A stretch of 64,000 nucleotides of DNA from positions 1-64,000 of the forward strand of contig NZ_JABFAM010000013.1 in NCBI RefSeq assembly GCF_013623775.1. The letters run 5' to 3'. The notes below the pieces were generated by a model. That model did no database searches, was not told the DNA's origin, and saw only the letters and a list, made by a program, of their open reading frames with translations. Origin of the DNA: Rufibacter sp. XAAS-G3-1 (GTDB lineage: Bacteria; Bacteroidota; Bacteroidia; Cytophagales; Hymenobacteraceae). A program made the translations under genes and the position numbers. Of the stretch, positions 8,503 to 29,420 are shown piece by piece; within the stretch, counting starts at the first letter, position 1; every line of letters begins with the position of its first letter.

Positions 8503-8615
8503 TTGCCCTCTATGTTTTTGTTTATAGGTAATATTCGTTTTCTTTGTGTAAATGTTGTTCCTTTTATGTACATTTCCAAACATAAAGGGAGAATTTTTTC
8601 AATAACAGCTATAAA

Positions 8616-8641
8616 ATGGCACACAATGGCATTTGATGGCA
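8616..8641 (+). repeat. Three ATGGCA direct repeats at 10-bp spacing
   Basis: ATGGCA occurs at 8616, 8626 and 8636, exactly one helical turn apart, 31 bases before the first gene of the element. Such phased repeats are typical binding sites for excisionase or integrase arm domains, or for an autoregulator. The assignment is inferential. Confidence 0.45.
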
Positions 8642-8671
8642 GCAAAAGACAGTCTTTGACACAGGGAACGC

Positions 8672-9043
8672 ATGAGTAACATACGGATTGAACGGGCTTG
8701 CCAACATTGCGGCGCCTCATTTGAAGCCAAGAGCACAGTTACCAAATACTGCGGCCTCCGTTGTGGCCAGAGAGCCTATAAGCTAAAGGTTAAGCTGGAG
8801 AAGATTGAAGCAACCAAGAAAGAGGCTGCCCAGGTTCCAGCCTCCAAGCCATTTGAGGAACTGAAGGCGAAAGAGTATCTGACCATAGAGGAACTAACAC
8901 AACTTCTTCCCATAAGCAGGCGCACTGTTTACCGGTTGATTGATAGGGGAGAGCTTAGGGTTGGCAAGCTAGGGAGAAGGACACTGATACGCCGCTCCGA
9001 CATTGACTTGCTTTTCACTACCCCAAAAACACCTGAGGCATGA
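8672..9043 (+). CDS. Zinc-ribbon plus HTH_17 DNA-binding protein (excisionase-like)
   Basis: The 123-residue protein has an N-terminal zinc-ribbon-like segment (ACQHCGASFEAKSTVTKYCG with Cys pairs), a basic linker, and a C-terminal MerR/excisionase-type helix-turn-helix (YLTIEELTQLLPISRRTVYRLIDRGEL followed by RRTLIRRSDID). Its stop overlaps the integrase start (ATGA), and this arrangement is usual for Xis-like or integrase-regulating proteins in Bacteroidota elements. The phased ATGGCA repeats upstream are candidate targets. Confidence 0.72.
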   Translation: MSNIRIERACQHCGASFEAKSTVTKYCGLRCGQRAYKLKVKLEKIEATKKEAAQVPASKPFEELKAKEYLTIEELTQLLPISRRTVYRLIDRGELRVGKLGRRTLIRRSDIDLLFTTPKTPEA

Positions 9044-10161
9044 AGATCACCAAGGTAAAGCTTCGCACCAAAGCCATGCTCAATAATCGGGAGAGCGTTC
9101 GCCTGGACTACTACCCACCCATACCAAACCCAGAAACTGGGAAACTAACCCGCTTTGAGTATACCGGCCTTTACTATTTCACGAAGCCCAGGACAGTTCT
9201 GGAACGCACTCATAATAAGGAAACCAAGGCCCTAGCAGAAAACCTACGGGCTCAGAGGCAGCTGGAGGTTCAAGCCGGGCAATTAGGTTTCCTAACTGCA
9301 AAAGACCTGCATGCAGACTTCATTGCCTTTTTCAGGGACTTAAAGGAGAAGAGAGATGGAACCACTCAAGGTAACTGGACAGGCACCCTTAACTACCTGG
9401 TTAAGTTCTTTGGCATGACAAAGCCCATGAAAGAACTGTCTGCAAAGGATTGCGAGGCTTTCAGAGAATTCCTGTTGACTTATAGGGGGCCTAAGGAAGA
9501 AGATGCCTCTCTCTCCCAGAATACGGCGGGGTCTTACTACGGGAAGTTTAAATCTGCCCTTAAGCTGGCCTTTAAAGAGGGACACCTACTGAAGGATTTA
9601 GATAAGGACACCAAAAACATAAAAGCTGAGGAGACGGAACGGGAGTTCCTGACATTAGAGGAGCTTAAGGTTTTGGCTTCCACCCCCTGCAAAAACACCT
9701 TACTCAGGAAGGCAGCGCTGTTCTCAGCACTTACCGGGCTACGCTACTCAGACATTGAGAAACTGACCTGGCCAGAGATCCAGCACAGCCAAGCAGACGG
9801 TTACTCCATACGCTTCAGGCAAAAGAAAACGAAAGGTACTGAGACCTTGCCTATCTCAGAAGAGGCGGTTTCCCTGCTTGGTGAACGCAGTTCAGGGAAT
9901 GTCTTTGAGGGGCTTAGCTATTCCCGTACCCTGCTTAAGAATCTAAAGACGTGGGTTGAGGAGTCTGGCATTCCTAAACACATCACTTTCCACTGTTTCA
10001 GGCATACCTACGCCACGCTACAGATTTCTATGGGCACAGACCTCTACACCGTTTCCAAACTGCTAGGGCACCGGGATCTGAAGACTACGCAGGTTTATGC
10101 TAAGGTGATGGATAAGGCTAAACAGGAGGCCGCTGGAAAGATTAAGTTGTTAGATATTTAA
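9040..10161 (+). CDS. int: Tyrosine recombinase (site-specific integrase)
   Basis: The protein has 373 residues. An arm-binding N-terminus is followed by a SAM-like core-binding domain (about 90-200, with a QGNWTGTLNYLVKFFG-type motif) and a catalytic domain. Catalytic residues are visible: Arg235 in LTGLRYSDIEKL, His318 and Arg321 in HCFRHTYATL, His344 in LLGHRDLKTT and Tyr353 in TQVYAKV, so the enzyme is probably active. It is translationally coupled to the preceding HTH gene. It would integrate and excise the element; its att core was not identified. Confidence 0.93.
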   Translation: MKITKVKLRTKAMLNNRESVRLDYYPPIPNPETGKLTRFEYTGLYYFTKPRTVLERTHNKETKALAENLRAQRQLEVQAGQLGFLTAKDLHADFIAFFRDLKEKRDGTTQGNWTGTLNYLVKFFGMTKPMKELSAKDCEAFREFLLTYRGPKEEDASLSQNTAGSYYGKFKSALKLAFKEGHLLKDLDKDTKNIKAEETEREFLTLEELKVLASTPCKNTLLRKAALFSALTGLRYSDIEKLTWPEIQHSQADGYSIRFRQKKTKGTETLPISEEAVSLLGERSSGNVFEGLSYSRTLLKNLKTWVEESGIPKHITFHCFRHTYATLQISMGTDLYTVSKLLGHRDLKTTQVYAKVMDKAKQEAAGKIKLLDI

Positions 10162-10172
10162 AGACAGTTACT

Positions 10173-11891
10173 ATGCCAACAATATCGGAAGACTTTGAAT
10201 ACGAATTAAGCTCAATTAACAATGGCTTAGATGAGAGGTATAGAATTGGATATGAATGCAAGAAAATCATAGTTGAAGATGAGTATTTCAGGGATTCCCT
10301 TTTCAATGAGTTCTCTCTTCTTGCTCCAAAGCCCAAATTCCATTGGTATGTCAAAAACTTCATAAGTGATGAGGTTTATTCTAATGCAAGAACTAACTCT
10401 AATCGATTTAAAGACGACCAAGCAGATAGAGTAATCTATTGGTTATTTGATAGATTTAACAAGAAGCAAATAAACAATGATGTTGAAGATAGATATTGTG
10501 GGAGGTCACTAAAGGATACCAGTACGATTAAACTGTTAAATGAAATTCACAATAAAGTTGAGGCTTTTAAAAGATATGTTCTGGTAGAAGGAAATGAAGA
10601 TTATTCAACTTTTGCTAGGGCAATATGCAGGGTAATAATAGATCTTACTAATCAATTCACCATGCCAGGGCTAAAATTTGCTGTATTGAATACTTTTAAA
10701 GAAGAAAAGGAAAATATCCATATAGATATTTTAAACGCCTTAGGAAATCGGAACAGTGATAAAAGTACATTCAAGGCTAGGTATGAAATGTTAAAGACTT
10801 ATGCTGATGCTATAATTATTGAAGAGATTGGAAAAAGCTCTGAAATAATTAATAAACCAAAAGCTTATAGTGGACAGGATTGGCTTGATTCATATAATGA
10901 AAGATACATAAAGTACCTTGGTGTAAGTAGGCCTAGTTTGACATATAAAGATTCCATTAGAGAAGAGTATGTGACAACTGAAGAAGAGGCTGAACAAACC
11001 AATGCATACTGGAGTAGCGCCAATGTGAAAGCTGGATATAAAGGAACTAGATTCAAGCTAATAACTTCTAAGTCTCAAGCATGGGAGAGGCTAGTGAACT
11101 ATGAGGCACAGATGCTACTTGAGTCTTTACAAATGAATTTGTATGATACATTCGGAACCCCTAAGCCAGATGTTTGCAGAGAAAAGCTTACTTCTATAAA
11201 CGACTTTATAGCTAGTGCGGAAAAGGAAAGCATAGAAGAAGCTTTCAAAGGTCATACAAAAGAATCTATAAAGCATGAATATCTCCGGCTTAAACATAAT
11301 TATTACCAATTAAATGAGTGCCCAATTGTTAATGGTCCTCTGCCGGCTCAAGTATATGGTAAATACTTCTTGTTCAAAGAATGGCTTGAAACTAAACTAA
11401 ACCATAAAAGGAATGATGATAGTTTTAACCTTACATCTACTGATCATTCAAAATCAGAGAACACATCGACACCTCCAATTAAGCTGATTACTATCCCTGA
11501 AGATAAAATAAATATTATCTATGATGAGGTTAAACATCTTTTTTCTGAGCAACAACATCTGTTGCTGAGTGCATTGAAGGGGGAGAAAATAACAGGAAAG
11601 CTAACATTCAATGGCTCACAAAAGCAATGGGTTGAACTGTTTAGAAGAATGCATTACAATGGAGTACTTACTCAGGATAAAAGGCAAACTGAGGATTGGA
11701 TTAATACTTATTTTCAGTATCAAGACAAGAAAAGTGGTTGCATGAAAAATTTTGGAGGCACAACATACGCCTATCTTACCAGGCCGGCTGGTGATCTAAC
11801 AGAAAGTAAACGCCTATGCAAAACAGAATGGCTAAAGTATAAGTCTAGTAAAATGTTGAAAGGAGAAAACAACCTTAATAAGATCAATTAA
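10173..11891 (+). CDS. Unknown 572-aa AT-rich protein, RteC-like C-terminus possible
   Basis: I do not recognise this protein. It is soluble-looking, rich in Lys, Glu, Asn and Tyr, without signal peptide or membrane segments, and clearly more AT-rich than its neighbours. Residues 1-400 are mostly helical with no known motif. The last 90 residues (LFRRMHYNGVLTQDKRQT, then a KNFGGTTYAYLTRP-type segment) loosely resemble the C-terminus of RteC-type regulators of Bacteroides conjugative elements. It lies 11 bases after the integrase. Its composition and its place beside the integrase suggest acquired cargo or a large regulator. Confidence 0.5.
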   Translation: MPTISEDFEYELSSINNGLDERYRIGYECKKIIVEDEYFRDSLFNEFSLLAPKPKFHWYVKNFISDEVYSNARTNSNRFKDDQADRVIYWLFDRFNKKQINNDVEDRYCGRSLKDTSTIKLLNEIHNKVEAFKRYVLVEGNEDYSTFARAICRVIIDLTNQFTMPGLKFAVLNTFKEEKENIHIDILNALGNRNSDKSTFKARYEMLKTYADAIIIEEIGKSSEIINKPKAYSGQDWLDSYNERYIKYLGVSRPSLTYKDSIREEYVTTEEEAEQTNAYWSSANVKAGYKGTRFKLITSKSQAWERLVNYEAQMLLESLQMNLYDTFGTPKPDVCREKLTSINDFIASAEKESIEEAFKGHTKESIKHEYLRLKHNYYQLNECPIVNGPLPAQVYGKYFLFKEWLETKLNHKRNDDSFNLTSTDHSKSENTSTPPIKLITIPEDKINIIYDEVKHLFSEQQHLLLSALKGEKITGKLTFNGSQKQWVELFRRMHYNGVLTQDKRQTEDWINTYFQYQDKKSGCMKNFGGTTYAYLTRPAGDLTESKRLCKTEWLKYKSSKMLKGENNLNKIN

Positions 11892-11960
11892 TAAACACTA
11901 TACCATTTGTATCCCAAGATATAAATGGGTCTTGAATGGGGTACTCCTTACTTAGGTCAT

Positions 11961-11993
11961 TTGCATCATTAGTTCACTAAACTATTGATGCAA
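11961..11993. promoter_or_regulatory. Inverted repeat abutting the start codon of an HTH gene
   Basis: TTGCATCATTAGTT and AACTATTGATGCAA are complementary at 13 of 14 positions around a five-base loop. The right arm ends at the A of the ATG start at 11993. As DNA it could be an autoregulatory operator; as RNA the hairpin would mask the ribosome-binding region. No normal Shine-Dalgarno sequence precedes the start. Confidence 0.55.
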
Positions 11994-12346
11994 TGGAAGC
12001 TTTAGTATTAACCCAATTATCTATACCAGAGATACGGCAACTGTTCAGACAGGAGTTGGTGGCCTACTTCTCTGAGGCAGCAACACAATCAGCAGCCCCG
12101 CAAAATGACAGGCTTCTTACAGTAACTCAAGCAGCCGAGTTCCTTAGCCTGGCTACTCCTACCATTTACAGCCTGGTAAGCCGTAATGAGATTGTTTACA
12201 TGAAGAGGGGCAAGCGCCTGTACTTCTCTGAGCAAGAGCTTACGGCATGGTTAAAGGGAGGAAGAAAGGAAGCAGCTGAAGCAAAGCTACCTGCCACTAC
12301 TTCAGCCCTAAGAGGTAAGGGCCCTAAAAAAGGAGGTGCGAAATGA
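11993..12346 (+). CDS. Helix-turn-helix (HTH_17/excisionase) protein
   Basis: The 117-residue protein carries RLLTVTQAAEFLSLATPTIYSLVSRNEIVYMKRGKRL with FSEQELTAWLK, the classical HTH_17 fold found in Bacteroidota elements directly upstream of replication genes. The C-terminus is a basic, flexible tail. The stop overlaps the next start (ATGA). It is likely a regulator or replication accessory protein of the downstream ATPase gene. Confidence 0.8.
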   Translation: MEALVLTQLSIPEIRQLFRQELVAYFSEAATQSAAPQNDRLLTVTQAAEFLSLATPTIYSLVSRNEIVYMKRGKRLYFSEQELTAWLKGGRKEAAEAKLPATTSALRGKGPKKGGAK

Positions 12347-12549
12347 GCAAAACATTCCACACCTCCGAAGATAATTCTTTAGATCCGCAAGCTAAAGATA
12401 AGAAAATCAATCACTTCCTGCAAACAGTGCCCTTCCTTTCTTTTTCAGATAAAGGACTGGAGAATATCGCCAAACGGTTCGGAATCTCTGTTGAAAGTCT
12501 CAAACTAAGGATAGAAGAGTTCGAGCAAGGAGGCGGGGTAAATGTTTGA
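12343..12549 (+). CDS. Small hypothetical protein of the replication operon
   Basis: A 68-residue protein with no family I recognise. The C-terminal half (FSDKGLENIAKRFGISVESLKLRIEEF) looks like a short HTH-type three-helix unit. It overlaps both neighbours by a few bases, so the three genes form a coupled operon. It may modulate the adjacent ATPase. Confidence 0.6.
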   Translation: MSKTFHTSEDNSLDPQAKDKKINHFLQTVPFLSFSDKGLENIAKRFGISVESLKLRIEEFEQGGGVNV

Positions 12550-13657
12550 CCCATCCGAAAGAATCACTGTAGACATACCGGAGGACTTTGATTTAAATGA
12601 AGCCTTTGGGGATACTCCGCCGCCCTCCTATACTTTTGAAAAGCCAAATCTGCTGGAAACCTTGGAGCCGCATAGGTTCCACTCTTACAATTCAATACCT
12701 AGGCCTGATGCTATTATCAGTGTAGACGGGAATATCCTTTCCACGGCCGGGAACATCACCACCATTGCAGGCCAAGCCAAAGCGGGCAAAAGTGGGGTTG
12801 TTGCTGCCATATTAGCCGGAGCCTTAGCTATACCTGGAGACACCCCGCCAGACACCCTAGGCATCACTGTAAAGCGAAATGACGAAGGCAAGGCCCTAAT
12901 TCATATTGATAGTGAGCAGTCACGGTATGACCATCACCGGAGTATGATGCAGGCAATTAAAAGGACACCCCGCAAAACAGAAACTGACTGGTTCTACTCC
13001 TTTAATCTCCAGCTGTTTGATGTTAAGGATCGCCGACAAAAGCTTCTCCAACTATGCGAAGTCCTTTCCGAAAAGCATGGCGGTATCTATATGATCATTT
13101 TAGATGGTGGTGCTGATTTCGTGAATGATACGAATGAACTGAAGGAGAGTAACGATGTAGTGCAGGAGTTTACGGCCTTAGCGGTCAACTATAACTGCCC
13201 TCTTATAAACGTGCTGCACTTCAACCCGGGCATAAGCGAAAAGGGGAGGGGGCATTTCGGAAGCCAGTTGGAACGCAAAAGCGAAAGTGTTATTGCGATT
13301 ACCAAAGACCAAGATAGCGGAATCAGTACGATTGAAGGCAAAAGGCTGCGCAACAGCGGCAACCTTCCACCTATCCAATTTGAATATGACACTGACTTAG
13401 GATACCATGTATTCATAGGGATCAAAAAGAAGGTCAGCAAAGAGGAAACCAAAGAAGCGGGCCTCTCTGATTTGGTTTTTCAGCTCTTTCCGATCGGTAC
13501 TGAAACATACACAACTGCAGAACTACAGGCGCAAATAATGGAAGTTGAAACGGTTAAAGAAAGAACCGCCCTTACCAGAATTAAGAATCTTAAAGATTGC
13601 GGTTTGATTGAGAGAGACCCGGCCTTGAACAAATACACCTATACTAATAAGCCTTAG
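12542..13657 (+). CDS. RepA-like AAA/RecA-fold ATPase
   Basis: The 371-residue protein has a Walker A motif GQAKAGKS (77-84), an IHIDSEQS segment, a Walker B-like IYMIILDGG (Asp188) and a later LINVLHFNPG sensor. This is the RecA-like fold of RepA-type hexameric helicases (AAA_25) that drive replication in plasmids and integrated elements. The C-terminus contains a winged-helix-like region. The order HTH protein, small protein, ATPase, iteron-like repeats and primase points to an autonomous replication module. Confidence 0.82.
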   Translation: MFDPSERITVDIPEDFDLNEAFGDTPPPSYTFEKPNLLETLEPHRFHSYNSIPRPDAIISVDGNILSTAGNITTIAGQAKAGKSGVVAAILAGALAIPGDTPPDTLGITVKRNDEGKALIHIDSEQSRYDHHRSMMQAIKRTPRKTETDWFYSFNLQLFDVKDRRQKLLQLCEVLSEKHGGIYMIILDGGADFVNDTNELKESNDVVQEFTALAVNYNCPLINVLHFNPGISEKGRGHFGSQLERKSESVIAITKDQDSGISTIEGKRLRNSGNLPPIQFEYDTDLGYHVFIGIKKKVSKEETKEAGLSDLVFQLFPIGTETYTTAELQAQIMEVETVKERTALTRIKNLKDCGLIERDPALNKYTYTNKP

Positions 13658-13790: not shown

Positions 13791-14972
13791 ATGGAAAGCA
13801 TCTTAAATGTTACCGTTTCCGGTTATTCCACTTTCGCAGCAGAACCAAAGGACGTGAATCTTTTATCCTACTTGAAGTCCACCAAATACAGGGCTGCAGT
13901 AGATGAGATCCGGAAAGAGGAAGAACCTGCCAAAAGGAAGGCGCTGAAGGAGTACCTACCAGGGATCACACCTTCCGGACGTTTTACCGAAAGGAAGGAA
14001 GCTGGTCTTATTGAACATAGCGGCCTTATCCAGTTTGACATTGACTTCAAGGAAAACAAACACATCACCAACTTTGCCCAGCTTAAAGAGCAGATATGCA
14101 AAATCTCCTCAGTGGCCTATTGCGGGTTGTCTGTGAGTGGTGCCGGGTTTTGGGGCTTGGTTCCGATAGCGGACAGGAGTAAGCACAAGCAGCACTTCAA
14201 AGCCCTTCAGCAAGCCTTCCTAAATTTCGGCATAATCCTAGACGCTGCCCCCTCCAATCCTGCCAGCTTCAGGTATTACAGCTATGATGAGGAACCCTAC
14301 TTCAACCACAGCGCCCAACCCTTAAAAGCTTTCTACACCCCGCCGGCTTACGTGCCTACTGCATACCGCCAAAGTGTAGATGATAATGAACGAAAAGTAC
14401 AGGCCTGTATAAGTGAGATTGAGCGCACATGCACTGACATAACTAAAAATTGCAGTCAGACCGAGTGGGCGGCAATTGGTTATAGCCTAGCCGCTGTATT
14501 TGAAGAAACCGGCCGGGATTACTTTCACCGGGTTAGCCAATACCATCCTACCTATTCTCCAAAAGAGACTGACTCTGTTTATAGGTCCTGCCTTGGTGGG
14601 AAAAAAGGGGATATTGGTACCTTTTTTAAACGGTGCCTTGACTCAGGGATCAAGTACATGGATAGCACCTTGTTTTCGGAAAAGCAGAAGGAGCCAACCC
14701 AAAAACCTTACAAGTCTTACACTCATGTTGTATCCGCTCCAGCTGAGTTACCCCGCGTTTCAGAAGTGACCTTAATACCTGAAGAAGAGCAGGAACAAGT
14801 AGAGTTCTACAATCAGACATTTTCTGAGCTATGCGATGCACTAGGCTATGACAAAGCCATAGAGAAGGTGAACTACTACTTATTCCTTTCCGGCAAACAT
14901 TCAGAGTGCAGCACCTTTATTATTCATACTTGCACCCTCTTATCAACTTTCAAACAATCTAAGGCAGCATAA
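13791..14972 (+). CDS. VirE_N / primase-C-terminal replication protein
   Basis: The 393-residue protein starts with a BT4734-like VirE_N domain (LPGITPSGRFTERKEAGL, LIQFDIDF, YCGLSVSGAGFWGLVPI and an RYYSYDEEPYFN segment), which resembles an archaeo-eukaryotic primase fold. The second half contains a PriCT-type region (WAAIGYSLAAVFEETGRDYFHRVSQ, then a GDIGTFFKRC-type segment). Such proteins prime replication of Bacteroidota plasmids, integrative elements and phages. It follows the iteron-like cluster directly. Confidence 0.82.
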   Translation: MESILNVTVSGYSTFAAEPKDVNLLSYLKSTKYRAAVDEIRKEEEPAKRKALKEYLPGITPSGRFTERKEAGLIEHSGLIQFDIDFKENKHITNFAQLKEQICKISSVAYCGLSVSGAGFWGLVPIADRSKHKQHFKALQQAFLNFGIILDAAPSNPASFRYYSYDEEPYFNHSAQPLKAFYTPPAYVPTAYRQSVDDNERKVQACISEIERTCTDITKNCSQTEWAAIGYSLAAVFEETGRDYFHRVSQYHPTYSPKETDSVYRSCLGGKKGDIGTFFKRCLDSGIKYMDSTLFSEKQKEPTQKPYKSYTHVVSAPAELPRVSEVTLIPEEEQEQVEFYNQTFSELCDALGYDKAIEKVNYYLFLSGKHSECSTFIIHTCTLLSTFKQSKAA

Positions 14973-15001: not shown

Positions 15002-15535
15002 ATGCAAATCACAACAGAGAACACCGCAAAAACCAACACCCTGCCTAATCCAGCGGACACCCTGAAGGAAGTACTAGGAGCCGTAGCCTTTATGATGGAG
15101 AACGGGCAGATAGCACGTAACGCGGCGCCCCTGGTAAACATCCTGAATGCAACAGATAAGTATCACAGCGATGATATGGCCACGCTACGGCAAACCATTG
15201 TGGGGCACTTTGACCTTGTGGACGGGCAGCCCCTCCGCTGTGAGCAGTTTGAGCCTTATGAGCTTTGGGATAGCCCAGAAGATAAGCTAAGAGATGCCAT
15301 TGCAAACCTGAAGGTGAAAGAATTTGAGCCTCCTTTCGGTGATGATTACCAGAGATTGTTCGGCTCTCCCACCAATGAAGAACCGGGGGAAATCTATGAT
15401 GAGGTGTACCTATCGGTAAAGCAGAAAGAGTTCTTGGAAGGCGTTCTCAAGTACTGGTATAATGGCAAAGGGGAAACCATAACGGATGAAGAGCACCTAA
15501 CCCTCAAAGATGTTACTGAGCAACTGTTCATGTAA
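15002..15535 (+). CDS. Element protein with paralogue at the other end
   Basis: The 177-residue protein is not from a family I can name. Its N-terminal part (GAVAFMMENGQIARNAAPL, then DMATLRQTIVGHF) is clearly homologous to the 95-residue protein at 27335-27622 (LMAVSAMIERGEVSPSAVPL, then DVENLRQSIFGYI). The C-terminal half is acidic. It is the last gene of the replication transcription unit and is followed by a strong bidirectional hairpin. Confidence 0.65.
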   Translation: MQITTENTAKTNTLPNPADTLKEVLGAVAFMMENGQIARNAAPLVNILNATDKYHSDDMATLRQTIVGHFDLVDGQPLRCEQFEPYELWDSPEDKLRDAIANLKVKEFEPPFGDDYQRLFGSPTNEEPGEIYDEVYLSVKQKEFLEGVLKYWYNGKGETITDEEHLTLKDVTEQLFM

Positions 15536-15674: not shown

Positions 15675-15688
15675 TTGATAAATAAGGA

Positions 15689-19941: not shown

Positions 19942-20502
19942 TTATCTTTTCCTGAAGGCTGCCAGTGCCTCCCTCAGTTCTCTCTCAGCGATAAAGGAAG
20001 AGCCGGTCAGCACATCGTAGCCTTTCGACTCCACAGCCGCGGCGTACTCCATGCCTGCCACCACTACCAGCACCAAGCCGGTAGGGTACTTGGCAGCGGC
20101 CCTTCTGGCCACGGCAATACCTTTGGCGGTACCCTCTCCTGTCTCTGGGAAGTGTTCTCTGATTGTTTTTCCGTTGTTCTGGATTAGGAAACCCACGGAG
20201 GAAGTGAGCGCACCGGTCCGGTCTTTATAGCGCGGTGTTGCCTGTGTAATATTCCCGCTCCTGTTAGGCTTTATCTTCAAGGGGGACAGCGGAACCGCTC
20301 CAATGGTAAGGCCTGACGCCCGCGCCCTGGTCTTCATGGCCTCCCGGTATGATGGGTCTGCGTGAACCTTTTCGCGCACGTTGGTCACGAACCGATCCCC
20401 CACAAAGTGCAGGGTCTGAATCATGGTATCATACATGGCCTTCAGCTTCCGGTCAATCACCCGGTTGATGTCGCTGCGGCTAAACTGCGCTTCAAATCCC
20501 AT
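19942..20502 (-). CDS. HK97-gp10-like tail completion protein
   Basis: From the ATG at 20500-20502 the protein has 186 residues; an upstream ATG at 20580 would add 26 residues rich in Pro, Arg and Cys that look non-native. The C-terminal half (GTAKGIAVARRAAAKYPTGL, VVVAGMEYAAAVESKGYDVL and SFIAERELREALAAFRKR) matches the gp10/tail-completion family that joins head and tail. In ordinary siphophages a major tail protein gene lies between this gene and the chaperones. Here it is absent. Confidence 0.65.
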   Translation of the reverse strand: MGFEAQFSRSDINRVIDRKLKAMYDTMIQTLHFVGDRFVTNVREKVHADPSYREAMKTRARASGLTIGAVPLSPLKIKPNRSGNITQATPRYKDRTGALTSSVGFLIQNNGKTIREHFPETGEGTAKGIAVARRAAAKYPTGLVLVVVAGMEYAAAVESKGYDVLTGSSFIAERELREALAAFRKR

Positions 20503-20580
20503 ACTCACAGGCTTATTGGTTCGGGTTCTGCGGGGTTGGCAGCAGGGCCCAAAAGGATTCCCCACTGCCTCACCACTCAC

Positions 20581-20903: not shown

Positions 20904-21092
20904 ATGGCAAAATCATCATTGAAGAGCCTGTCGGCCGAACACCGGCAGAATGTCGTGAGCGAAGTCCTGGACCTGCTCCGAACCAAGTACGGCCAGCAGA
21001 TAGGCCATATTGAGATTACCCAGTCAGAGCTTGATGCCCTGGGCCATATCCCACAGGCGTCCCAGCAGGAGATTGACGCAGTAAACCTTTAA
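20904..21092 (+). CDS. Small hypothetical protein
   Basis: A 62-residue helical protein (AKSSLKSLSAEHRQNVVSEV). No family recognised. It is 18 bases upstream of the next gene in the same direction and likely cotranscribed. Confidence 0.55.
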   Translation: MAKSSLKSLSAEHRQNVVSEVLDLLRTKYGQQIGHIEITQSELDALGHIPQASQQEIDAVNL

Positions 21093-21110: not shown

Positions 21111-21815
21111 ATGGAAACCACCACCCAAAAATTCCCCATCCTGATTCACGAAGACGCGAAAGCCTACCAGAGCTTTATGCAGTCCTACCGATTGCACGTC
21201 CTTCCCACCGTGAAAGACATCAAGGCGATGTATGAGAAACTCAACCTTCAGGAGCCCTTCAGCGATGAGGTATGGCAAGACATCATACACGGGGGCCGCA
21301 AGGTGCAGGCTGCCATAGAAGCCCGGGTGAAAGCCGTCAGGGAATTCCTAGGGGTGAGCACCGGACTCGTCAAAGAAGACGTGATGAGCAAGGCCAACCC
21401 CTATGGCCCGATAGCCGACAGGATGTACCGCTTCCACAACACCTTCAATGGTAACTCGGAACAACTGCACCGGCTTCCCTTGAGCGAGGTGGTGAACGTG
21501 GCAGATGTCCCCGAAATCAGTGAGAAAGGCAAAGCCATGGTCTTGGAGATGTTCAGGGAGTACATCCAGAATGAGGAGGAACTGCGCATCAAAGAAGATG
21601 CTGAGGCCTTTATCGAGGCGTTCAACAAAATGGCGAAGACCCTCAAAGGGGCGGATGTATGGGAAAGAACCTATGGCCCCATGTTCGGGAACGGCCACAC
21701 CATGCACATGATAATCTCTGAAGACAGGGATGATGCCAAGACTCCAGTATTCAGCCTTAACCCAACTCTTTTCTCCTCTTTGAGATACATCCGAAACTCG
21801 AAGAAATATAGATAG
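21111..21815 (+). CDS. Hypothetical protein, paralogue of 22302-22991
   Basis: The 234-residue protein shares an N-terminal module with the gene at 22302: KFPILIHEDAKAYQSFM against EKILIHEDPDLFQGLM, then VKDIKAMYEKLNLQEPFSDE against VSDIAEAYSELNIGPFDNE. Both look soluble and helical. No known domain is visible. It ends before a hairpin terminator at 21822-21851. The duplication implies a function important enough to diversify, for example a structural or regulatory pair. Confidence 0.6.
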   Translation: METTTQKFPILIHEDAKAYQSFMQSYRLHVLPTVKDIKAMYEKLNLQEPFSDEVWQDIIHGGRKVQAAIEARVKAVREFLGVSTGLVKEDVMSKANPYGPIADRMYRFHNTFNGNSEQLHRLPLSEVVNVADVPEISEKGKAMVLEMFREYIQNEEELRIKEDAEAFIEAFNKMAKTLKGADVWERTYGPMFGNGHTMHMIISEDRDDAKTPVFSLNPTLFSSLRYIRNSKKYR

Positions 21816-22301: not shown

Positions 22302-22991
22302 ATGAAGACCCAGACTTTACCCCAAACACCCTCTCAGGAGAAGATACTTATCCATGAAGACCCTGATCTCTTCCAAGGGCTAATGGGCAGAGGAAAACAA
22401 TTGTTCGGATTGGTCAGCGATATAGCAGAAGCCTACTCCGAACTGAACATCGGGCCCTTTGACAATGAAGCCTTCCAAGCGGCTATCCATAACCCGTCCG
22501 CCATCAGGGATAAGGTAATGGGCACCGTAGGGCAGGCGCTCGCCTTGGCTCCCTTCAAGGCTAAGAATCTGAGGCAGGAGATGACGGAAGATGCCGAGGC
22601 GCTATTGAGTGACCTTTACAAGGCGGTTACCGTGCTTAGGCAAGCCGGCCAGAGCCCCGGCAGCATTCCCCTTATCTTTCCTCTGTCTTCCATCACCATC
22701 AACGAGGAGGGTTCCCCAGAAATAAACGGGCAGAACCAGGAGAAGCTGAAAGAGCAGTACTGCAGGATTTACCTGGAGTCGCCGGAGGAAAAAGCCCTTT
22801 ACCTCAAACTGAAAGAGCTGGAGAAAGCCTACAACGGAGTGCAGGAGGAATTCAACAAGCACCGGTTCATAGGTCAGCTGGGTGTACACCCTACCATTGA
22901 CACCCTGGTATTGGATTCCCAGAACATGGCTACCCTGAAGCCCGAGGCCACCAAAATGCTGGTGCAGAGATACCAGGCAAACAGATATTAG
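22302..22991 (+). CDS. Hypothetical protein, paralogue of 21111-21815
   Basis: The 229-residue protein has the same ILIHED N-terminal module as the 21111 gene, then diverges to a coiled-coil-like C-terminus (LYLKLKELEKAYNGVQEEF). No domain recognised. Spacing to the next gene is four bases. Confidence 0.6.
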   Translation: MKTQTLPQTPSQEKILIHEDPDLFQGLMGRGKQLFGLVSDIAEAYSELNIGPFDNEAFQAAIHNPSAIRDKVMGTVGQALALAPFKAKNLRQEMTEDAEALLSDLYKAVTVLRQAGQSPGSIPLIFPLSSITINEEGSPEINGQNQEKLKEQYCRIYLESPEEKALYLKLKELEKAYNGVQEEFNKHRFIGQLGVHPTIDTLVLDSQNMATLKPEATKMLVQRYQANRY

Positions 22992-22995: not shown

Positions 22996-23451
22996 ATGGA
23001 GAGCAGCTTCAACTACTCTATGGTAAAGAAGAGTTTCGCCATTCTGAAAGACCAGGCCGCTTACCTGAGAAGGAAGGGCAACAAAGCCTCTAACTGGGTA
23101 AGGGAAGCGATTGACGAAAAGGTGCTCAGGGAAATGGGGGCCCAGACCCTTGGCGGACTGGGCCTAAATCCTTTCATCACCAATACTGCAGAAGGGCCTA
23201 TGGATTCCATACAGGTCTTTCTGGTGGAACAGGCAACCGACACCCACTCCCTTATTCTGGTGAAGGGCGGCGGCCGGGACACCTGCGGGGAGATACCCAG
23301 CCAGCAGGTAAAGCCTTACCTAAGGTATATACGGAAGCAGCGTTTCAACAAACCGATAGAAGAGCGCCATATCACCAGAGAGGAATTTGAGCAGAAAAGG
23401 GAAAGCGTACTTTTTGAAAACAACAAAAATCAGCAAAAACCATGGGACTGA
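22996..23451 (+). CDS. Hypothetical protein
   Basis: A 151-residue protein that begins ESSFNYSMVKKSFAILKDQA. A central mixed segment contains DSIQVFLVEQATDTHSLILVKGGG in two parts, and the C-terminus is basic. No family recognised. It overlaps the next gene by ten bases, so the two are coupled. Confidence 0.55.
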   Translation: MESSFNYSMVKKSFAILKDQAAYLRRKGNKASNWVREAIDEKVLREMGAQTLGGLGLNPFITNTAEGPMDSIQVFLVEQATDTHSLILVKGGGRDTCGEIPSQQVKPYLRYIRKQRFNKPIEERHITREEFEQKRESVLFENNKNQQKPWD

Positions 23452-23750
23452 AAAAAGGCCAGACGAACAACCCAAATGGAAGGAAACCTGGGGTACCCAA
23501 TAAACTGACAGGCAGCATGCGCGAGCGGGTGAACGGCTTCCTGGATGAGAACTTTGACACGGTGACGGAAGCCTTCACGCAGCTGAGCCCCTCCGACAAA
23601 CTGCACTTCTACACAAAGCTGCTGGCGTTCGGGCTCCCTACCCTAAAGGCGGTGGAGCACTCCGGCGAAATCAAGAATAAACTGGAGGCTCTCTCAGATG
23701 AGCAGCTGAACGAACTGGTGCACCAGGTATTAAGTGCCGTTGACAAATAA
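23442..23750 (+). CDS. DUF5681-like phage protein
   Basis: The 102-residue protein opens with LKKGQTNNPNGRKPGVPNK, the N-terminal signature (KGQSGNPxGRxxGxxNK type) of DUF5681 proteins, which are common near packaging or head genes in Bacteroidota phages. A helical segment follows (ERVNGFLDENFDTVTEAF). The molecular role is not established; a small-terminase-like DNA-binding role is sometimes proposed. It is the only gene of the rightward cluster with a recognisable phage signature. Confidence 0.6.
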   Translation: MGLKKGQTNNPNGRKPGVPNKLTGSMRERVNGFLDENFDTVTEAFTQLSPSDKLHFYTKLLAFGLPTLKAVEHSGEIKNKLEALSDEQLNELVHQVLSAVDK

Positions 23751-23986: not shown

Positions 23987-24286
23987 ATGAAAAGACAGGA
24001 GAAGATAGAAGCGCTCAGGAAGATACTTGACGGGGTTCCGGTGGAAGAGGCATTCCCTGTTGTGGAAGTGGTCCTTTATGAGAGCTTTGAGAAGGAAGGA
24101 ATAACGGTGGCGCTTGTAGAGCCCCGGGACGGGTATAAGCAATCCGTCATTGTAACCCCTAACCAATTGGCGGCTTCTGTGGTGGATGACATACGGAAGT
24201 GGAACCCGCTGAAACGGGTAAAGGCAATCTACATCTCCAGAGCGGAGCTAGACGCATACGATGCTTGGTTTGAAAAGGAATTCTAA
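23987..24286 (+). CDS. Hypothetical protein
   Basis: A 99-residue protein (KRQEKIEALRKILDGVPVEEAF, split here as a helix then a strand-rich segment VVEVVLYESF). It overlaps the next gene by one base (TAATG). The N-terminal RKILDGVPVEEA echoes RKILAEVLTGAL and REILADVLAGNI in the two paralogues downstream, so a distant relationship is possible. Confidence 0.55.
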   Translation: MKRQEKIEALRKILDGVPVEEAFPVVEVVLYESFEKEGITVALVEPRDGYKQSVIVTPNQLAASVVDDIRKWNPLKRVKAIYISRAELDAYDAWFEKEF

Positions 24287-24645
24287 TGGAAAACACCAGA
24301 AAGATATTGGCGGAAGTACTGACCGGCGCTCTTACCCCTCAGCAGGCGGCACCAGCTTTGCGGCAGGCCATGGCAGAGGAAAACCCTGTGGTATTGGTCT
24401 TGGAAGAGAAGGATGGCACCTACAGCCTGGTAGAGGTATCAGAAAGCTTTAAGGTTTGCGATGCCAAAAAGGGCTTTACCCGGGAAGAGGTGGAAGAGAA
24501 AACAAGGTACAGGAAGGCGCTGTACTTTGACAGCGAAGACAGCCAGCTGGGCAACGCCACCTTAGTAACCCATCCGGACCCAAAGAAGGTTAATACAGTC
24601 ATTGTCCTACCTGACAACGGTAGGCGCTTAAACCAGAGCTTATGA
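24286..24645 (+). CDS. Hypothetical protein, paralogue of 24890-25177
   Basis: The 119-residue protein shares TRKILAEVLTGALTPQQAAP, ALRQAMAEE and LVLEEKDGTYSLV with the 24890 gene (SREILADVLAGN, APALRLAMKRE, AMQEEDGTWSV). No known family. It is coupled to the flanking genes by start-stop overlaps. Confidence 0.6.
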   Translation: MENTRKILAEVLTGALTPQQAAPALRQAMAEENPVVLVLEEKDGTYSLVEVSESFKVCDAKKGFTREEVEEKTRYRKALYFDSEDSQLGNATLVTHPDPKKVNTVIVLPDNGRRLNQSL

Positions 24646-24893
24646 CCATCATAGAGACAAGCAGCGAAGAGTACCGGGAATTGGCGGTTAACGCCATTGT
24701 TAACCAGGACGTGCATGTGCTGAGCCAGCTGAGGGAAGCCAACGAGGCCGGAGCCGGTGAGGTGGTGGTGCTGGGCTCCTTTTTGGATGCGCTCATATAC
24801 TCCACCGATGATGATGACAACGATGATGAACGGGCGGAGGTAATCACAGACCTGACGCTGTACAACTTCTTCCATAACCCGCCAGCGGCATGA
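24642..24893 (+). CDS. Small acidic hypothetical protein
   Basis: An 83-residue protein with an acidic run (STDDDDNDDERAEV) near the C-terminus. It overlaps both neighbours by four bases (ATGA). No family recognised; the extreme acidity is compatible with a protein inhibitor or nucleic-acid mimic, but nothing more supports this. Confidence 0.5.
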   Translation: MTIIETSSEEYRELAVNAIVNQDVHVLSQLREANEAGAGEVVVLGSFLDALIYSTDDDDNDDERAEVITDLTLYNFFHNPPAA

Positions 24894-25177
24894 CACAGAC
24901 TAGCAGAGAGATACTGGCCGATGTATTGGCCGGCAACATTACCATGGTAGCCGCGGCGCCGGCGCTGAGGTTGGCCATGAAGAGGGAAGCACCATTGGTT
25001 ATTGCGATGCAGGAAGAAGACGGCACCTGGTCAGTTACCCATGTAGTAGGAAAGCAATTTGAAATGTCGGACATGTTCCTTAACCCAACGATCAAAGGTC
25101 TCTCTGAGGAAGAGTATAGGGCACGCTACGGAGAACACAACGGTATAGAGTTCAAAGCTGTAGAGCAGGTGGGTTGA
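24890..25177 (+). CDS. Hypothetical protein, paralogue of 24286-24645
   Basis: A 95-residue protein homologous to the 24286 product over its first 50 residues, with a different C-terminus (LSEEEYRARYGEHNG). Together with the acidic gene between them the two paralogues form a tightly overlapped trio. Confidence 0.6.
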   Translation: MTQTSREILADVLAGNITMVAAAPALRLAMKREAPLVIAMQEEDGTWSVTHVVGKQFEMSDMFLNPTIKGLSEEEYRARYGEHNGIEFKAVEQVG

Positions 25178-26411: not shown

Positions 26412-26816
26412 TTAGATCAATTCGAGCGTCCTGTCATTGATGAATACATCTAGTGGAATCTTGAGTGCCTTATGCAGATTGTTAATCTGTTGCAGAGTGA
26501 AGTATCTTTTTCTGCTTAGAATTTCAGATACTCTAGACTTGGGCCCAATCAAAGGCTCAAGGTCTTTGTTCTTCCATCCATTTTCTTCCATTATATACTT
26601 GATAGCATCAATGGGATCTGGTGTGGAAATGGTGTAATGCACTTGCTCGTAAGCGTGCACAAGAGTGGATAGGACCTCTAGTTCATCATCAAGTTCAGTC
26701 TCTGGTTCAGGATTTAAGTCTAAAATTTGGTCAATGCGAGTGATAGCTTCACGGTAGTCTTGGTCGGTACGAATTGGGTGAATTGCTGAATTTGGGGTGG
26801 TAGCGGTCTTTGTCAT
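26412..26816 (-). CDS. higA: HigA-family HTH antitoxin (second copy)
   Basis: The 134-residue protein has the same architecture as the antitoxin at 1623: an acidic N-terminal part (ITRIDQILDLNPEPETELDDE), then a C-terminal XRE-type HTH (YIMEENGWKNKDLEPLIGPKS with RVSEILSRKRYFTLQQINNL). It is the downstream gene of a toxin-first pair, 65 bases after higB. It probably stabilises the mobile element and represses the operon through the GTTAC-N7-GTAAC sites at 27220-27279. Confidence 0.87.
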   Translation of the reverse strand: MTKTATTPNSAIHPIRTDQDYREAITRIDQILDLNPEPETELDDELEVLSTLVHAYEQVHYTISTPDPIDAIKYIMEENGWKNKDLEPLIGPKSRVSEILSRKRYFTLQQINNLHKALKIPLDVFINDRTLELI

Positions 26817-26881
26817 GATTTTTGTACCCTGGATATTTCGTCTTGAACTTGGTATTTGGCGCGGTCAGTTCATTTAGCCCA

Positions 26882-27175
26882 CTACACAGAGTGGGCGTCT
26901 ATTCTATCATACTCTGCGTGGGTTCCGATCCATCTGATGTATACTGTCTGGTTTTTGACCAGAACCACGGTTATGATACGGTAGCGATTTCCTTTGATGT
27001 CGAATATAGCTCGGTTATTACCTAGTATATCTACTGAGTTAAAGACCTTCTTCAACTCATTCAGGTTCTTAATTTCAAGTCCTTTAATGATGGAGACCCA
27101 AACCTCAAGAGGGAGTTTGGAGTCTGCATGTTTGGTATAGAACTCAATTAAGCGGGCATTTGAAATAATCCTCAT
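26882..27175 (-). CDS. higB: HigB-family type II toxin (second copy)
   Basis: The 97-residue toxin has MRIISNARLIEFYTKHADSK, IFDIKGNRYRIITV and VYIRWIGTHAEYDRIDA. It is homologous along its full length to the toxin at 1323-1616 but has diverged, so the two pairs were not produced by recent duplication. It is intact. Within a mobile element it would act as an addiction module. Confidence 0.88.
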   Translation of the reverse strand: MRIISNARLIEFYTKHADSKLPLEVWVSIIKGLEIKNLNELKKVFNSVDILGNNRAIFDIKGNRYRIITVVLVKNQTVYIRWIGTHAEYDRIDAHSV

Positions 27176-27622: not shown

Positions 27623-27924
27623 ATGATTGCAATTTCACACATACCATTGAATTTATAGAATGCAGTTAAATCCTGCACCTCGAAATGAATTCTGTCACTA
27701 TTCGTCGTAAGGGAAAACCTGGATGGGTTAGACTCCCCGGCTCTCTCAAAGTGCCCTATGCACAATCCCTCGCTTGACTCTGATACACAGATACTGTTCT
27801 CTTTTATGGAGGCAATCTCATGTAAGGGAATAGGTTCTAAAACTAATTTATCACCTTTTGCCGCAAACGGCATTAAACCATCAGAGCCAAGTGTCAATAC
27901 GTGTTTATTTGGATATGATATCAT
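27619..27924 (-). CDS. S24-peptidase-like small protein
   Basis: A 101-residue protein with GDKLVLEPIPLHEIASIKEN and SICVSESSEGLCIGHF, the kind of beta-rich pattern seen in the S24/LexA C-terminal domain. No catalytic Ser-Lys pair is evident and there is no N-terminal HTH, so it cannot be a standard self-cleaving repressor. It may be a degenerate regulator. Confidence 0.45.
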   Translation of the reverse strand: MISYPNKHVLTLGSDGLMPFAAKGDKLVLEPIPLHEIASIKENSICVSESSEGLCIGHFERAGESNPSRFSLTTNSDRIHFEVQDLTAFYKFNGMCEIAII

Positions 27925-27969
27925 AGCAATACAACAATTTAGATGAAGTGAATTTAATCAAATGCAGGA

Positions 27970-28569
27970 CTAATCGTTTTTGGACCACCCTCTTTCGTCA
28001 AAGGTGAACAAGTTAGGGTGCCTCAATTTGACACATTCAGGGATGAAGGGCTTACCGTTTTCCTTGCCGTCTGCATACAGATGTTGCCAGGTGAAATTGT
28101 CTTTTCTGATCATCAGGGTTATCCCTGGTCCCATGCCCCATGTTCTTCTTTCCCCTGTGCGGCTGTCGATGAATGAGTAATATATGACCGCCGCTATGCA
28201 GTCACGGTTTAGCCAGGCAAGCTCCTTCAAGGGTATCGCCAGCGACTGCGGCTCATACCATCCTACATGACCAACACCTGAATCGTTAATGTATACATGG
28301 GGCTTTATCTCTTGCACTATATGCTTCTCTACCCTCAGAGACTTTAATATCATATGTATCTCAACTTCAGCAGTTGAGTAGGAGGTAATCTGGTTATTGT
28401 CTGGATTAACCTCGGGTTCAGGGATTCCGAAGTAAGAACCGGCCCAAGGGCGACCCTCTTCGGGATTTTCCCGCTTTTGATTTTTCCTACCTTCACTTGC
28501 CTTTGTTAAGGCTTTGTTGCGATTAGCGCTAGTCGGGCTATTAGGGATTTTTACTGGCTGAGTATTCAT
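27970..28569 (-). CDS. Hypothetical protein related to 28575-29012
   Basis: The 199-residue protein has a basic disordered N-terminus (residues 1-45) and a globular C-terminal part containing YYSFIDSRTGERRTWGMGPG and FTWQHLYADGKENG. The next gene upstream has a similar order (RTSLIDKATGQAKELDY, LKWSRLNAHTWKPE), so the two are distant paralogues five bases apart. No known family. Confidence 0.55.
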   Translation of the reverse strand: MNTQPVKIPNSPTSANRNKALTKASEGRKNQKRENPEEGRPWAGSYFGIPEPEVNPDNNQITSYSTAEVEIHMILKSLRVEKHIVQEIKPHVYINDSGVGHVGWYEPQSLAIPLKELAWLNRDCIAAVIYYSFIDSRTGERRTWGMGPGITLMIRKDNFTWQHLYADGKENGKPFIPECVKLRHPNLFTFDERGWSKND

Positions 28570-28574
28570 GGCTC

Positions 28575-29012
28575 CTATCTTTTATTTCTGTCAACTGTGA
28601 AAATTACCTCTGGTTTCCAGGTATGGGCATTAAGGCGAGACCATTTAAGATGGCCAACCCTGACTAGGGGACTAAAAGAGTGATAGTCTAACTCCTTTGC
28701 CTGCCCAGTAGCTTTGTCAATTAGTGAGGTCCGGTTTACAAAAGCAATTGCGCTACTGTCGCTGCAGATAAATTCATTGATAGCAGCGGCCTCTTCCTCA
28801 TTATCAAAGCCCTCCATGTCACATATGACTTTAATACGCTTTACTTCTAGATTTTTTGTAATAATCTCGAAATCATGTACTACTTGATATTTTGAAGAGT
28901 GAGGCTTCAGCAGCCGTAAAGGAATGCCAGCAAAGTTCACTGGCTCATTTTCCTGCCGGTCCAGAAGTAATGGTAATTGCTGCTCTTCGGATTGGATTTG
29001 GTTTTCATTCAT
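28575..29012 (-). CDS. Hypothetical protein related to 27970-28569
   Basis: From the ATG at 29010-29012 the protein has 145 residues; the longer frame upstream adds an unlikely hydrophobic N-terminus. It shares an SLID-x-x-TG and K-W-x-x-L pattern with the next gene. It is the first gene of the leftward right-end operon of the element, with a possible operator (CTTGTAAG...CTTACAAG) at 29106-29131. Confidence 0.55.
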   Translation of the reverse strand: MNENQIQSEEQQLPLLLDRQENEPVNFAGIPLRLLKPHSSKYQVVHDFEIITKNLEVKRIKVICDMEGFDNEEEAAAINEFICSDSSAIAFVNRTSLIDKATGQAKELDYHSFSPLVRVGHLKWSRLNAHTWKPEVIFTVDRNKR

Positions 29013-29420
29013 GATCTTGTGGTTTATGGTTAGAAATAGGTTTTCAATCCAAGTGAGCAAGACCAATTTTGAAGAAGAAAAGCGGGATACGTACCCTTCT
29101 TGTTCCTTGTAAGTTTGTACTTGCTTACAAGTATTTGATTGTTAGTTATTTGAATAGATTTGCTATATTCCCAGTACAAAGGTAGTCTTTCTAGGTGAGT
29201 TTTACGCGAATGCGCCAGAGAGGGTGGTTCTGATAGGATTAACCGCGCCAGTTCAGCCAACAACTGCTTTGTTTTTGTCCTGTTTTTCAGGAAATAGGGT
29301 AAAAACCAAAATTTGGCTCTGGATCGGTGCGTCAATTGTCATTCTATGGGGAAATGTCTGTAACTTAAGGAAGTTTTTAGCTCCCTCTTTTTACCGTTGC
29401 ACCAAACCAATTCCTTCCCT
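29013..29420. other. Junction region between mobile element and hutU
   Basis: No gene is present. The region holds an inverted repeat CTTGTAAG/CTTACAAG (29106-29131) near the start of the leftward operon, and a copy of the palindromic intergenic repeat at 29271-29307 that marks return to chromosomal backbone. The right end of the element is therefore probably between these two landmarks. No att core was identified. Confidence 0.45.

Follow-up and report, generated by a model that had tools for sequence, protein, structure and literature searches.

A compact integrated element of Rufibacter with its own tail tape measure and no recognisable head genes, a probable phage satellite

How a discrete chromosomal element comes to carry the tape measure protein (TMP) and the assembly chaperones of a phage tail, with no recognisable head, is the question raised by a locus of Rufibacter sp. 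XAAS-G3-1, a member of the Hymenobacteraceae in the order Cytophagales. Among phage satellites, the PICIs are compact islands equipped with an integrase, regulators, replication genes and a small terminase. A tape measure, which the original prediction called unusual in a satellite, is so indeed: according to PMC12987554 (2026), none had been reported before those of the Vibrio cholerae PLEs, which with a TMP and a chaperone of their own make chimeric tails, and in which deletion of tmp lowers transduction by 96 to about 99.9%. In this paper, we have analysed the whole stretch of 64,000 nucleotides that holds the locus (contig NZ_JABFAM010000013.1, positions 1 to 64,000; the window), and we argue that the element is probably a helper-dependent phage satellite which would build chimeric tails like those of the V. 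cholerae PLEs.

The element is discrete and integrated, has its own integrase, and occupies window positions ~8413-29177, a length of ~20.75 kb. These boundaries, established like its gene content and the kinship of its backbone from the sequence, refine the 8600-29100 given originally; they are marked by 13-bp att-like repeats, identical at 12 of 13 positions by eye (Table 1), and are certain to ~15 bp only, the longest exact word common to both ends being 8 bp (8428-8435 and 29165-29172). The empty site was found in 13 of the 15 other genomes of the genus, where the left flank sits immediately upstream of urocanate hydratase, the right-hand neighbour of the element in the window. The left-flank matches in these 13 genomes end at window 8415-8428, and in 9 of them the right-hand core (from 29165-29177) is also matched; no left-flank match was obtained at two loci (L287 and L288) among the 15 genomes. 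The ends given here are those of the window element alone, not of its relatives.

Table 1. Features of the element in window coordinates
Feature	Position	Strand	Basis
Left end repeat (att-like), ATATTTCCAGTAC	8413..8425		read by eye; junction agrees with relatives' empty site
HTH_17 DNA-binding protein	8672..9043	+	Pfam 7.8e-15
Tyrosine integrase	9040..10161	+	Phage_integrase 8.7e-22, Phage_int_SAM_5 2.5e-13
572-aa conserved protein, no Pfam family	10173..11891	+	homologs in G241, G210, G237
HTH_17 excisionase/regulator-like protein	11993..12346	+	7.6e-13
68-aa conserved protein	12343..12549	+	homologs in G241 and G229, 62% identical across 50 aa
RepA-like AAA ATPase	12542..13657	+	AAA_25 8.3e-6 (just under Pfam's cut-off); phrog_239 primase/helicase 3.7e-7
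BT4734-like primase	13791..14972	+	BT4734-like_N 3e-8, PriCT_2 2.7e-8
177-aa protein, conserved in G015 element	15002..15535	+	homology
Tail tape measure protein (TMP), 1155 aa	15689..19156	-	phrog_9959 3.4e-21, phrog_14295 1.7e-24
Second frame of tail assembly chaperone pair (GT-like)	19160..19483	-	phrog_11996 2.6e-10
Tail assembly chaperone (G-like)	19363..19911	-	same-position homologs in related phages; overlaps second frame
Neck/tail-completion-position protein	19942..20580	-	phrog_5377 4.2e-33 (phrog_5377 itself without assigned function)
62-aa small protein	20904..21092	+	by eye; similar small protein, same place, in G240
Marker 1 family protein, copy 1	21111..21815	+	profile search
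Marker 1 family protein, copy 2	22302..22991	+	profile search
102-aa protein, candidate TerS-like	23442..23750	+	weak DUF5681, 0.00065, below cut-off
99-aa small protein	23987..24286	+	weak homolog in G240 (4e-4)
Marker 2 small protein (ILKQ-type), copy 1	24286..24645	+	5.8e-27, itself a model seed
83-aa small protein	24642..24893	+	44% identical in G240 (3e-15)
Marker 2 small protein (ILKQ-type), copy 2	24890..25177	+	4.4e-23, itself a model seed
HigA-like antitoxin/regulator	26412..26816	-	phrog_1373 2.4e-22
HigB-like toxin (probable toxin gene of the pair)	26882..27175	-	phrog_5734 3.7e-30
199-aa protein common to G015 element	27970..28569	-	39% identity, 5e-30
Right end repeat (att-like), ATATTCCCAGTAC	29165..29177		read by eye against left repeat

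The integrase, RepA-like ATPase and primase of the original prediction were all recovered by profile searches, and with the latter two the element has replication genes of its own. Nine further genomes of the family encode a primase with 48-53% identity to this one, homologs of the ATPase occur in G241 and G015, and those of the 572-aa protein in G241 (L120), G210 (L125) and G237 (L130) each adjoin an integrase. A HigB_toxin match (1.8e-26) came from one of 23 ORFs scanned, which the output does not name.

The frames of the tail module had been described as intact, and this holds: the TMP reading frame runs uninterrupted for 1155 codons, and both chaperone frames align with overlapping frame pairs of related phages. 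Different parts of the TMP match different phage TMPs; the GT-like frame has homologs in the phage loci of G043, G022, G027 and G213, and the G-like chaperone matched no Pfam family. The protein adjoining them, named a completion-position protein from its gene position, is 52% identical over 92 aa to a G213 protein and has 78 relatives in IMG/VR; its model (pLDDT 69.6) gave no usable structural match, and no PDB relative was found by sequence. The element thus has its own TMP and tail chaperone, as satellites of the PLE type do. The module is inverted relative to the surrounding element genes, and its chaperone overlap contains no perfect slippery heptamer; both observations count against a satellite.

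Large terminase, portal, capsid, tube and lysis genes had been reported missing, and within the limits of our queries neither Pfam nor phmmer revealed any. A Pfam scan of 32 distinct ORFs of the window turned up no family of large terminases, portals, capsids or lysis proteins; the same search detected TerS, TerL, portal and capsid in the related phage G022 and capsid in G213, but 0 of 5 neck/tail proteins tried. Furthermore, when 37 proteins from structural regions of related phages, mostly labelled from gene position, were compared by phmmer with 233 open segments of the element, only the completion-position protein and chaperone matched, and capsid or head, tail tube, terminator and tip gave no match. 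Two related phage loci that hold neither portal nor terminase served as controls, and there the same queries recovered the genes for capsid, decoration, terminator, tube and tip. Two queries labelled portal (G213 and G027) match no portal family, and portals are represented by three others; the G022 tube query missed the tubes of G213 and G043, and an equally divergent tube would escape detection. Within these limits, the element is without a head and most structural genes, as satellites are, and has none of the large terminase, portal, capsid and tube that make a complete siphophage. The class of cf-PICIs, which have their own capsid genes, was considered and rejected because no capsid gene was found. 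As for a tail-only particle, for which the element alone would specify a tailocin or injection machine, the TMP, chaperones and completion-position protein would suit it, but queries that work on related phages found no tube, terminator or tip, and a tailocin would not be expected to come with genes for integration and replication. This proposal was rejected on the missing tube, and we regard it as very unlikely indeed.

The element also carries, in two copies each, both marker proteins of a satellite-like Cytophagales family. Marker 1 was found in 16 genomes, drawn from 7 of 204 in the family (profile A1) and 12 of 390 in a sample of the order (profile A5); a sample of 395 genomes of the class gave 2 matches, both within the order and one of them the window genome. 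Both window copies are rows of its profile. Matches in G077 (2e-4) and G334 (3e-6; an 11.5-kb contig) are weak. With three different members as queries, marker 1 had no match in 50,697 phage records, and the model of copy 2 (mostly helical, mean pLDDT 80.4) had no PDB or viral match at E<=0.1. Of 21 element groups, 8 match marker 2 with E-values of at most 5e-10, 7 of them having supplied model seeds (G233 had not), and G082 matches more weakly (0.013); among 6 head-and-tail phage loci, 0 match. Most of the wider element set is without marker 2, an observation that counts against a satellite, as do the phage-locus homologs of the HigBA pair and of the 83-aa gene (33%, 1e-8, in the phage-type locus L022 of G027). 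The 102-aa protein is a candidate TerS-like packaging protein: its C-terminal stretch resembles satellite TerS by eye, and it is 68% identical to a G005 protein. G016 holds both such a DUF5681-like protein and a true TerS, and true TerS occurs in several relatives; that the window, unlike PICIs with their small terminase, offers a weak DUF5681 candidate only again counts against a satellite.

By these comparisons, the window backbone belongs to a capsid-poor, satellite-like family of the Cytophagales linked by the two markers. A search for the gene set in other genomes, proposed originally as a check, returned backbone and markers in integrated elements of other species, many with a TMP. The elements of G005, G034, G222, G233, G240, G241 and G229 have an integrase, HTH regulators, replication genes and markers in common with the window, and most have TerS (none was found in G005); in this compact arrangement the relatives are like PICIs, as the latter are described. 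By Pfam, no large terminase, portal or capsid was found in 63 ORFs (30 + 33) of five hand-picked relatives, a scan that excluded the TMPs of G240, G241, G233 and G016, one end-cut G241 gene and very small ORFs.

A TMP lies within ~3 kb of marker 1 in 9 of the 16 marker 1 genomes, recognised by PHROG matches in the window, G222, G026, G233, G240, G016, G082 and G297, and in G255 only via homology to the G233 TMP; two marker 1-negative relatives, G241 and G015, also have one. ORF reading and phmmer with 16 TMP queries found none in G005, G034, G063, G077, G299, G334 and G432, nor was one found in G229. The TMPs of G222, G233, G240 and G241 differ from the window's in type, position or strand, and among elements of the family a chaperone match was seen only in the window. 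By blastp at 1e-4, the TMPs of the window, G026, G240, G241 and G297 group with those of phages G213 and G022, and those of G222, G233, G016 and G255 form a second group unlinked to the first. The G015 element has a complete, different TMP (phrog_4211 4.9e-21), weakly linked by blastp to another prophage TMP only, behind a chaperone-like pair named from position; convergent to its primase it also keeps, as a relic, 326 aa from the end of a window-type TMP. As no kinship could be detected between at least two groups of these TMPs, they were gained more than once, and recent decay of one prophage, raised in the original prediction, is therefore disfavoured.

Such decay would mean that a temperate siphophage was stripped of its head, tube, tip and lysis genes and that the element is what remains of it, with tail genes that are fossils and intact only by chance. 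The closest relatives of these genes are indeed the head-and-tail phage loci of Pontibacter and Adhaeribacter (G213, G022, G043 and G027), which share the TMP superfamily (~30% identity over residues 410-1155), chaperones and completion protein, and the window retains a subset of the order in G022 and G213 (completion, terminator, tube, chaperones, TMP, tip). The truncated TMP in G015 fits a remnant, as do head-region matches in a few related elements: one protein of G005 matched an unidentified protein from the head region of G213 and G027 (7.6e-30), one of G026 matched a protein of G213 labelled scaffold (3.8e-7), and a segment of 59 aa in G015 matched the G022 capsid (7e-5). These matches count against a satellite. 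In G026, TMP beside TerL was considered as the trace of a deletion and set aside, since the neighbouring 40 kb is also without a structural-query match and a satellite with TerL is equally possible. The phage loci have head, tube and terminator genes, and marker 2 was not found in them. However, the backbone relatives of the window element are compact, often have TerS and, in the Pfam scan above, gave no large terminase, portal or capsid. Nor was the loss one contiguous deletion: completion protein and chaperone stand 30 bp apart, with terminator and tube gone from between them, and the TMP is kept. Sister elements are occupied by TMPs of an unlinked group, and we noticed no gene of the window's element that seemed broken. 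We consider a remnant rather unlikely.

A search for a resident helper found no tail tube of the window's tail type in the window genome, 15 other genomes of the genus and 7 further genomes with related elements; the profile, which covered tubes of this tail type, was positive in 2 of 25 cases, both phages that had contributed to it. The lack of such a tube in the genus favours a remnant and counts against a satellite; that no phage of this tail type was found in the genus also counts against recent decay of one siphophage. In IMG/VR, no window-type contig was found by the window TMP, primase or marker 1, which likewise counts against a satellite; the G233 TMP is present there (100%) in one 15,035-bp contig, and a TerS scan gave 534 relatives, of which 80 were kept.

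The original idea of a satellite that remodels helper tails has gained support, as backbone and markers recur in compact elements in which no capsid was found, many with a TMP; helper dependence, packaging and tail replacement we infer from the PLE parallel. The site-specifically integrated satellite would replicate with its own ATPase and primase, and a helper phage, siphophage-type by gene order, would supply the heads, the tube and tip of the tail, and lysis. Once a helper infects, the satellite would produce its TMP with the aid of its own two-frame chaperone, and this TMP would take the place of that of the helper. The helper tube would then polymerise around the ruler of the satellite, whose genomes would exit in chimeric tails. 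On the other hand, the TMP and chaperones might mainly disturb helper tail assembly and not be built into satellite particles, tail assembly and the TMP being known targets of defence: Tab recognises the TMP (PMC10884400), and Tai is carried by PICIs and P4-like satellites (PMC11364771). Neither system, however, is described as a TMP in these accounts, a full-length TMP with cognate chaperone frames exceeds the needs of a decoy, and the PLE TMP is incorporated into particles (PMC12987554). We therefore assign interference a low probability.

The satellite proposed here resembles the PLEs in having a TMP and tail chaperone without the rest of the tail, and PLE TMPs and chaperones also fall into two sequence groups (PMC12987554). 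PLE11 adds a baseplate hub and the window a completion-position protein; all PLEs have tmp, whereas many window relatives have no TMP (PMC12987554). The PLEs belong to another phylum and use ICP1-type contractile tails, whereas the window tail genes resemble those of phages whose gene order suggests non-contractile tails; the tail function has been shown in PLEs and would be similar in the window element, which we liken to them in its way of working rather than class among them. Putative tmp genes also appear in a sampling of cf-PICIs (PMC12987554, Extended Data Fig. 10). Among other small elements without a full tail, the Pseudomonas satellite AH14b has a tail assembly protein I gene (PMC4936722), and some lineages of Charybdis, whose elements integrate in archaea and are without terminases, have homologs of tail parts (PMC12324425); the descriptions in these two sources name no tape measure, which the window has.

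The window element would thus represent a new lineage and a variant of a very recently described kind of satellite, chimeric tails made by satellites having been known since 2026 in one satellite family and one host, with their benefit left to further work (PMC12987554). With a second such lineage in another phylum, and TMPs acquired there repeatedly, tail takeover would become a general strategy of satellites. Related backbones that differ in whether they have a TMP, or in which TMP they have, are natural comparisons for the role of this protein, be it in setting tail length, in DNA ejection or in evading defences that target the TMP. More tentatively, and as a possibility rather than an expectation, the Cytophagales may widely host satellites that routinely carry, and at times replace, TMP modules from different phage families. 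If so, chimeric tails would be a general strategy of satellites that arose independently of the Vibrio PLEs, and the TMP would be the part deciding whose genome receives a working tail.

Imperfect 13-bp repeats, identical at 12 of 13 positions by eye and sharing 8 bp as their longest exact word, bound the element, and 13 of the genus's 15 other genomes have the left flank directly upstream of urocanate hydratase, the place that the element holds in the window. The integrase, RepA-like ATPase and primase of the original prediction are all encoded on the + strand of the element, and the tail completion, chaperone and tape measure protein (TMP) genes were found on the - strand, the completion protein being named from its gene position.

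Features of the window element and of related loci (TerS and TerL, small and large terminase)
Locus	Coordinates	Strand	Feature
Window	about 8413 and 29177		end repeats
Window		+	first block: HTH protein, integrase, 572-aa gene, HTH regulator, 68-aa gene, RepA-like ATPase, BT4734-like primase, 177-aa gene
Window		-	tail module, convergent with the primase genes: completion-position protein, two overlapping chaperone frames, 1155-aa TMP
Window		+	second block, after the tail module: two copies of the 230-aa marker 1 family, 102-aa protein, small-gene run with two marker 2 copies
Window	21111-21815; 22302-22991	+	two divergent marker 1 copies
Window	23442-23750	+	102-aa protein
Window		-	last block: HigBA pair amid unnamed genes
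Window	26412-27175	-	HigBA pair
L023 (G043 phage)	14792-15497		HigBA homologs (36%), beside the TMP
L145 (G005)	16424-16732		102-aa protein
L145 (G005)	14934-15617		227-aa protein
L018 (G015, C1:500000-519000)	11567-12547		326-aa relic of the window-type TMP C-terminus
L018 (G015)	4923-8487		complete, different TMP
L136 (G000, C7:56000-75999)	about 5346-19781		second element of the same genome
L137 (G015, C19)			second element of the same genome
G222			TerS, marker, TMP 920 aa (opposite strand)
G233			TerS, marker, TMP 865 aa, then 659 aa
G016			marker, TMP 716 aa, TerS
G297			TMP 1411 aa, TerS; near contig end
G255			TerS, 837-aa protein, TMP-like by homology to G233 only
G082			one locus with 928-aa TMP
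G026			TerS-like, TerL, TMP

Large terminase, portal, capsid and lysis genes had been predicted to be lacking, and indeed no such family was detected by Pfam among 32 distinct ORFs of the window. As a control, Pfam recognised TerS, TerL, portal and capsid in the related phage G022 and the capsid in G213, whereas all five neck and tail proteins tried went unrecognised; it is therefore uninformative on the tail tube. When 37 structural-region proteins from related phages were searched against the element's 233 open segments, the completion protein and a chaperone were the sole matches. In two phage loci the same set did recover genes for capsid, decoration, terminator, tube and tip, in part through each locus's own proteins and with portal and terminase lacking a control there. 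The expected absence of a major tail protein agrees with this search, within the limit that a tube as divergent from that of G022 as those of G213 and G043, both missed by the G022 query, could escape it. Furthermore, the gene order in G022 and G213 is completion, terminator, tube, chaperones, TMP and tip; in the window 30 bp separate the completion protein from the chaperone, with no gene between.

The chaperone frames overlap as do their phage counterparts, which at this site have, among other heptamers, AAATTTT (G213) and TTTTTTG (G022); the window carries GATTTTTCT, an imperfect heptamer, at this site. At 1155 aa, the window TMP is shorter than those of G213 (1364 aa) and G022 (1525 aa), with which its residues 25-163 and 410 to 1120-1155 align, the latter at ~30% identity. 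Residues 192-305 share 49% identity with another, prophage-encoded TMP (G240 contig 61), and are the TMP stretch matched by Bacteroides, Parabacteroides and unnamed phages (20 among the matches listed).

Two protein families link the element to satellite-like elements of Cytophagales, i.e. marker 1, the family of the protein at 22302, and marker 2, an ILKQ-type small protein. The marker 1 profile was positive in 7 of 204 genomes of the family, with more rows in 12 of 390 genomes of the order sample, and in 2 of 395 genomes of the class sample, both within the window's order. Over all samples marker 1 occurs in 16 genomes, several with a TMP. With three marker 1 members as queries, none of 50,697 phage records was matched; the predicted structure of marker 1 is mostly helical, and the model had no structural match. 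As in the window, marker 1 is present twice in G240 and at one locus of G082. Marker 2 was found in 8 of 21 element groups (seven of which supplied the seeds, G233 supplying none), plus one weaker, and in none of six head-and-tail phage loci, some of them only partly covered. We call the element a satellite because its markers are without matches in these phage records (marker 1) and loci (marker 2). As marker 2 is present in the window, G005, G034, G222, G229, G233, G240 and G241, these constitute the core group, the wider set being looser. Further backbone genes are common to the window and G241, G229 and G015; one of the window's small genes and its HigBA pair have homologs in phage loci.

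Among the Hymenobacteraceae (Cytophagales) are Pontibacter ummariensis NKM1 (G240), P. virosus DSM 100231 (G241), P. roseus DSM 17521 (G229) and P. arcticus 2b14 (G034). The G240 and G241 elements are compact, with integrase, HTH, replication and small genes, TerS and then the TMP; no TMP was found in G005 and G034, among others. In 63 ORFs of G240, G241, G222, G233 and G016, Pfam identified integrases, replication proteins and small terminases, and no large terminase, portal or capsid. A large terminase is carried by G026, G063 and G299, whose marker-bearing loci (L021, L291 and L295) gave no capsid match; in G026 the TMP directly follows it. Besides TerS, TMP and the G026 TerL, the structural queries gave three head-region matches in 20 element groups: the 227-aa protein of the TMP-less G005 element, which has no Pfam family, to a G213/G027 head-region protein of unassigned identity (7.6e-30), a G026 protein to one we labelled scaffold (3.8e-7), and a 59-aa segment of G015 to capsid (7e-5). 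The remaining flanks of G026 and G015 had no match to these queries. The packaging genes of the window element are uncertain, a point against the satellite reading. By eye, the G005 marker region is closest to that of the window; the 102-aa protein is 68% identical between these two species of the genus, far above the other shared genes, and may have been exchanged recently.

Loci in G232 (L123) and G231 (L129) have the same primase family with other cargo, partly restriction-like by eye, and their genomes gave no TMP match. In the L136/L137 element, integrase- and primase-like genes adjoin restriction-type genes (by eye), and related primase alignments cross equal numbers of stop codons in both genomes.

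According to PMC12987554, the PLE satellites of V. cholerae build chimeric tails that are about 10 nm shorter from a satellite TMP and chaperone, and tmp deletion lowers transduction by 96% (PLE1), 99% (PLE4) and about 99.9% (PLE11). By analogy, we infer that the window element would follow this scheme, with a different helper. Of the tail-remodelling satellite originally proposed, satellite status has gained marker kinship, and tail remodelling stays a putative function. Against this scheme, a tube of this tail type was found neither in the genome of the window nor in the 15 others of its genus nor in seven more that carry related elements (the tube profile was positive in 2 of 25, both being phages that had contributed to it), so any helper would have to be incoming or of another tail type. 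Also against it, searches of IMG/VR with the TMP, primase and marker 1 gave no virome evidence for the element. In titles and abstract openings, most subscription papers being outside the scope, no description of this group was found under satellites with a tape measure or chimeric tails, or under satellites in Bacteroidetes, Bacteroidota or Pontibacter.

Blastp separates the TMPs into two or more groups that are not linked to each other. The first comprises the window, G026, G240, G241 and G297, and is tied to phages G213 and G022; the second comprises G222, G233, G016 and G255, with G082 added by phmmer. The best phage matches of the second group are short or near 25%, and its members may therefore have inherited their TMP within satellites. 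TMP position and strand differ among elements. Within the same genus, G015 has the relic facing the primase convergently, like the TMP of the window, and the complete TMP (phrog_4211) behind a chaperone-like pair without a family match, so this tail module looks replaced. The unlinked groups, the varying position and strand and the G015 module disfavour the recent decay that had been considered, and suggest that the ruler module was gained and at times replaced in these elements, rather than being left by one decaying prophage.
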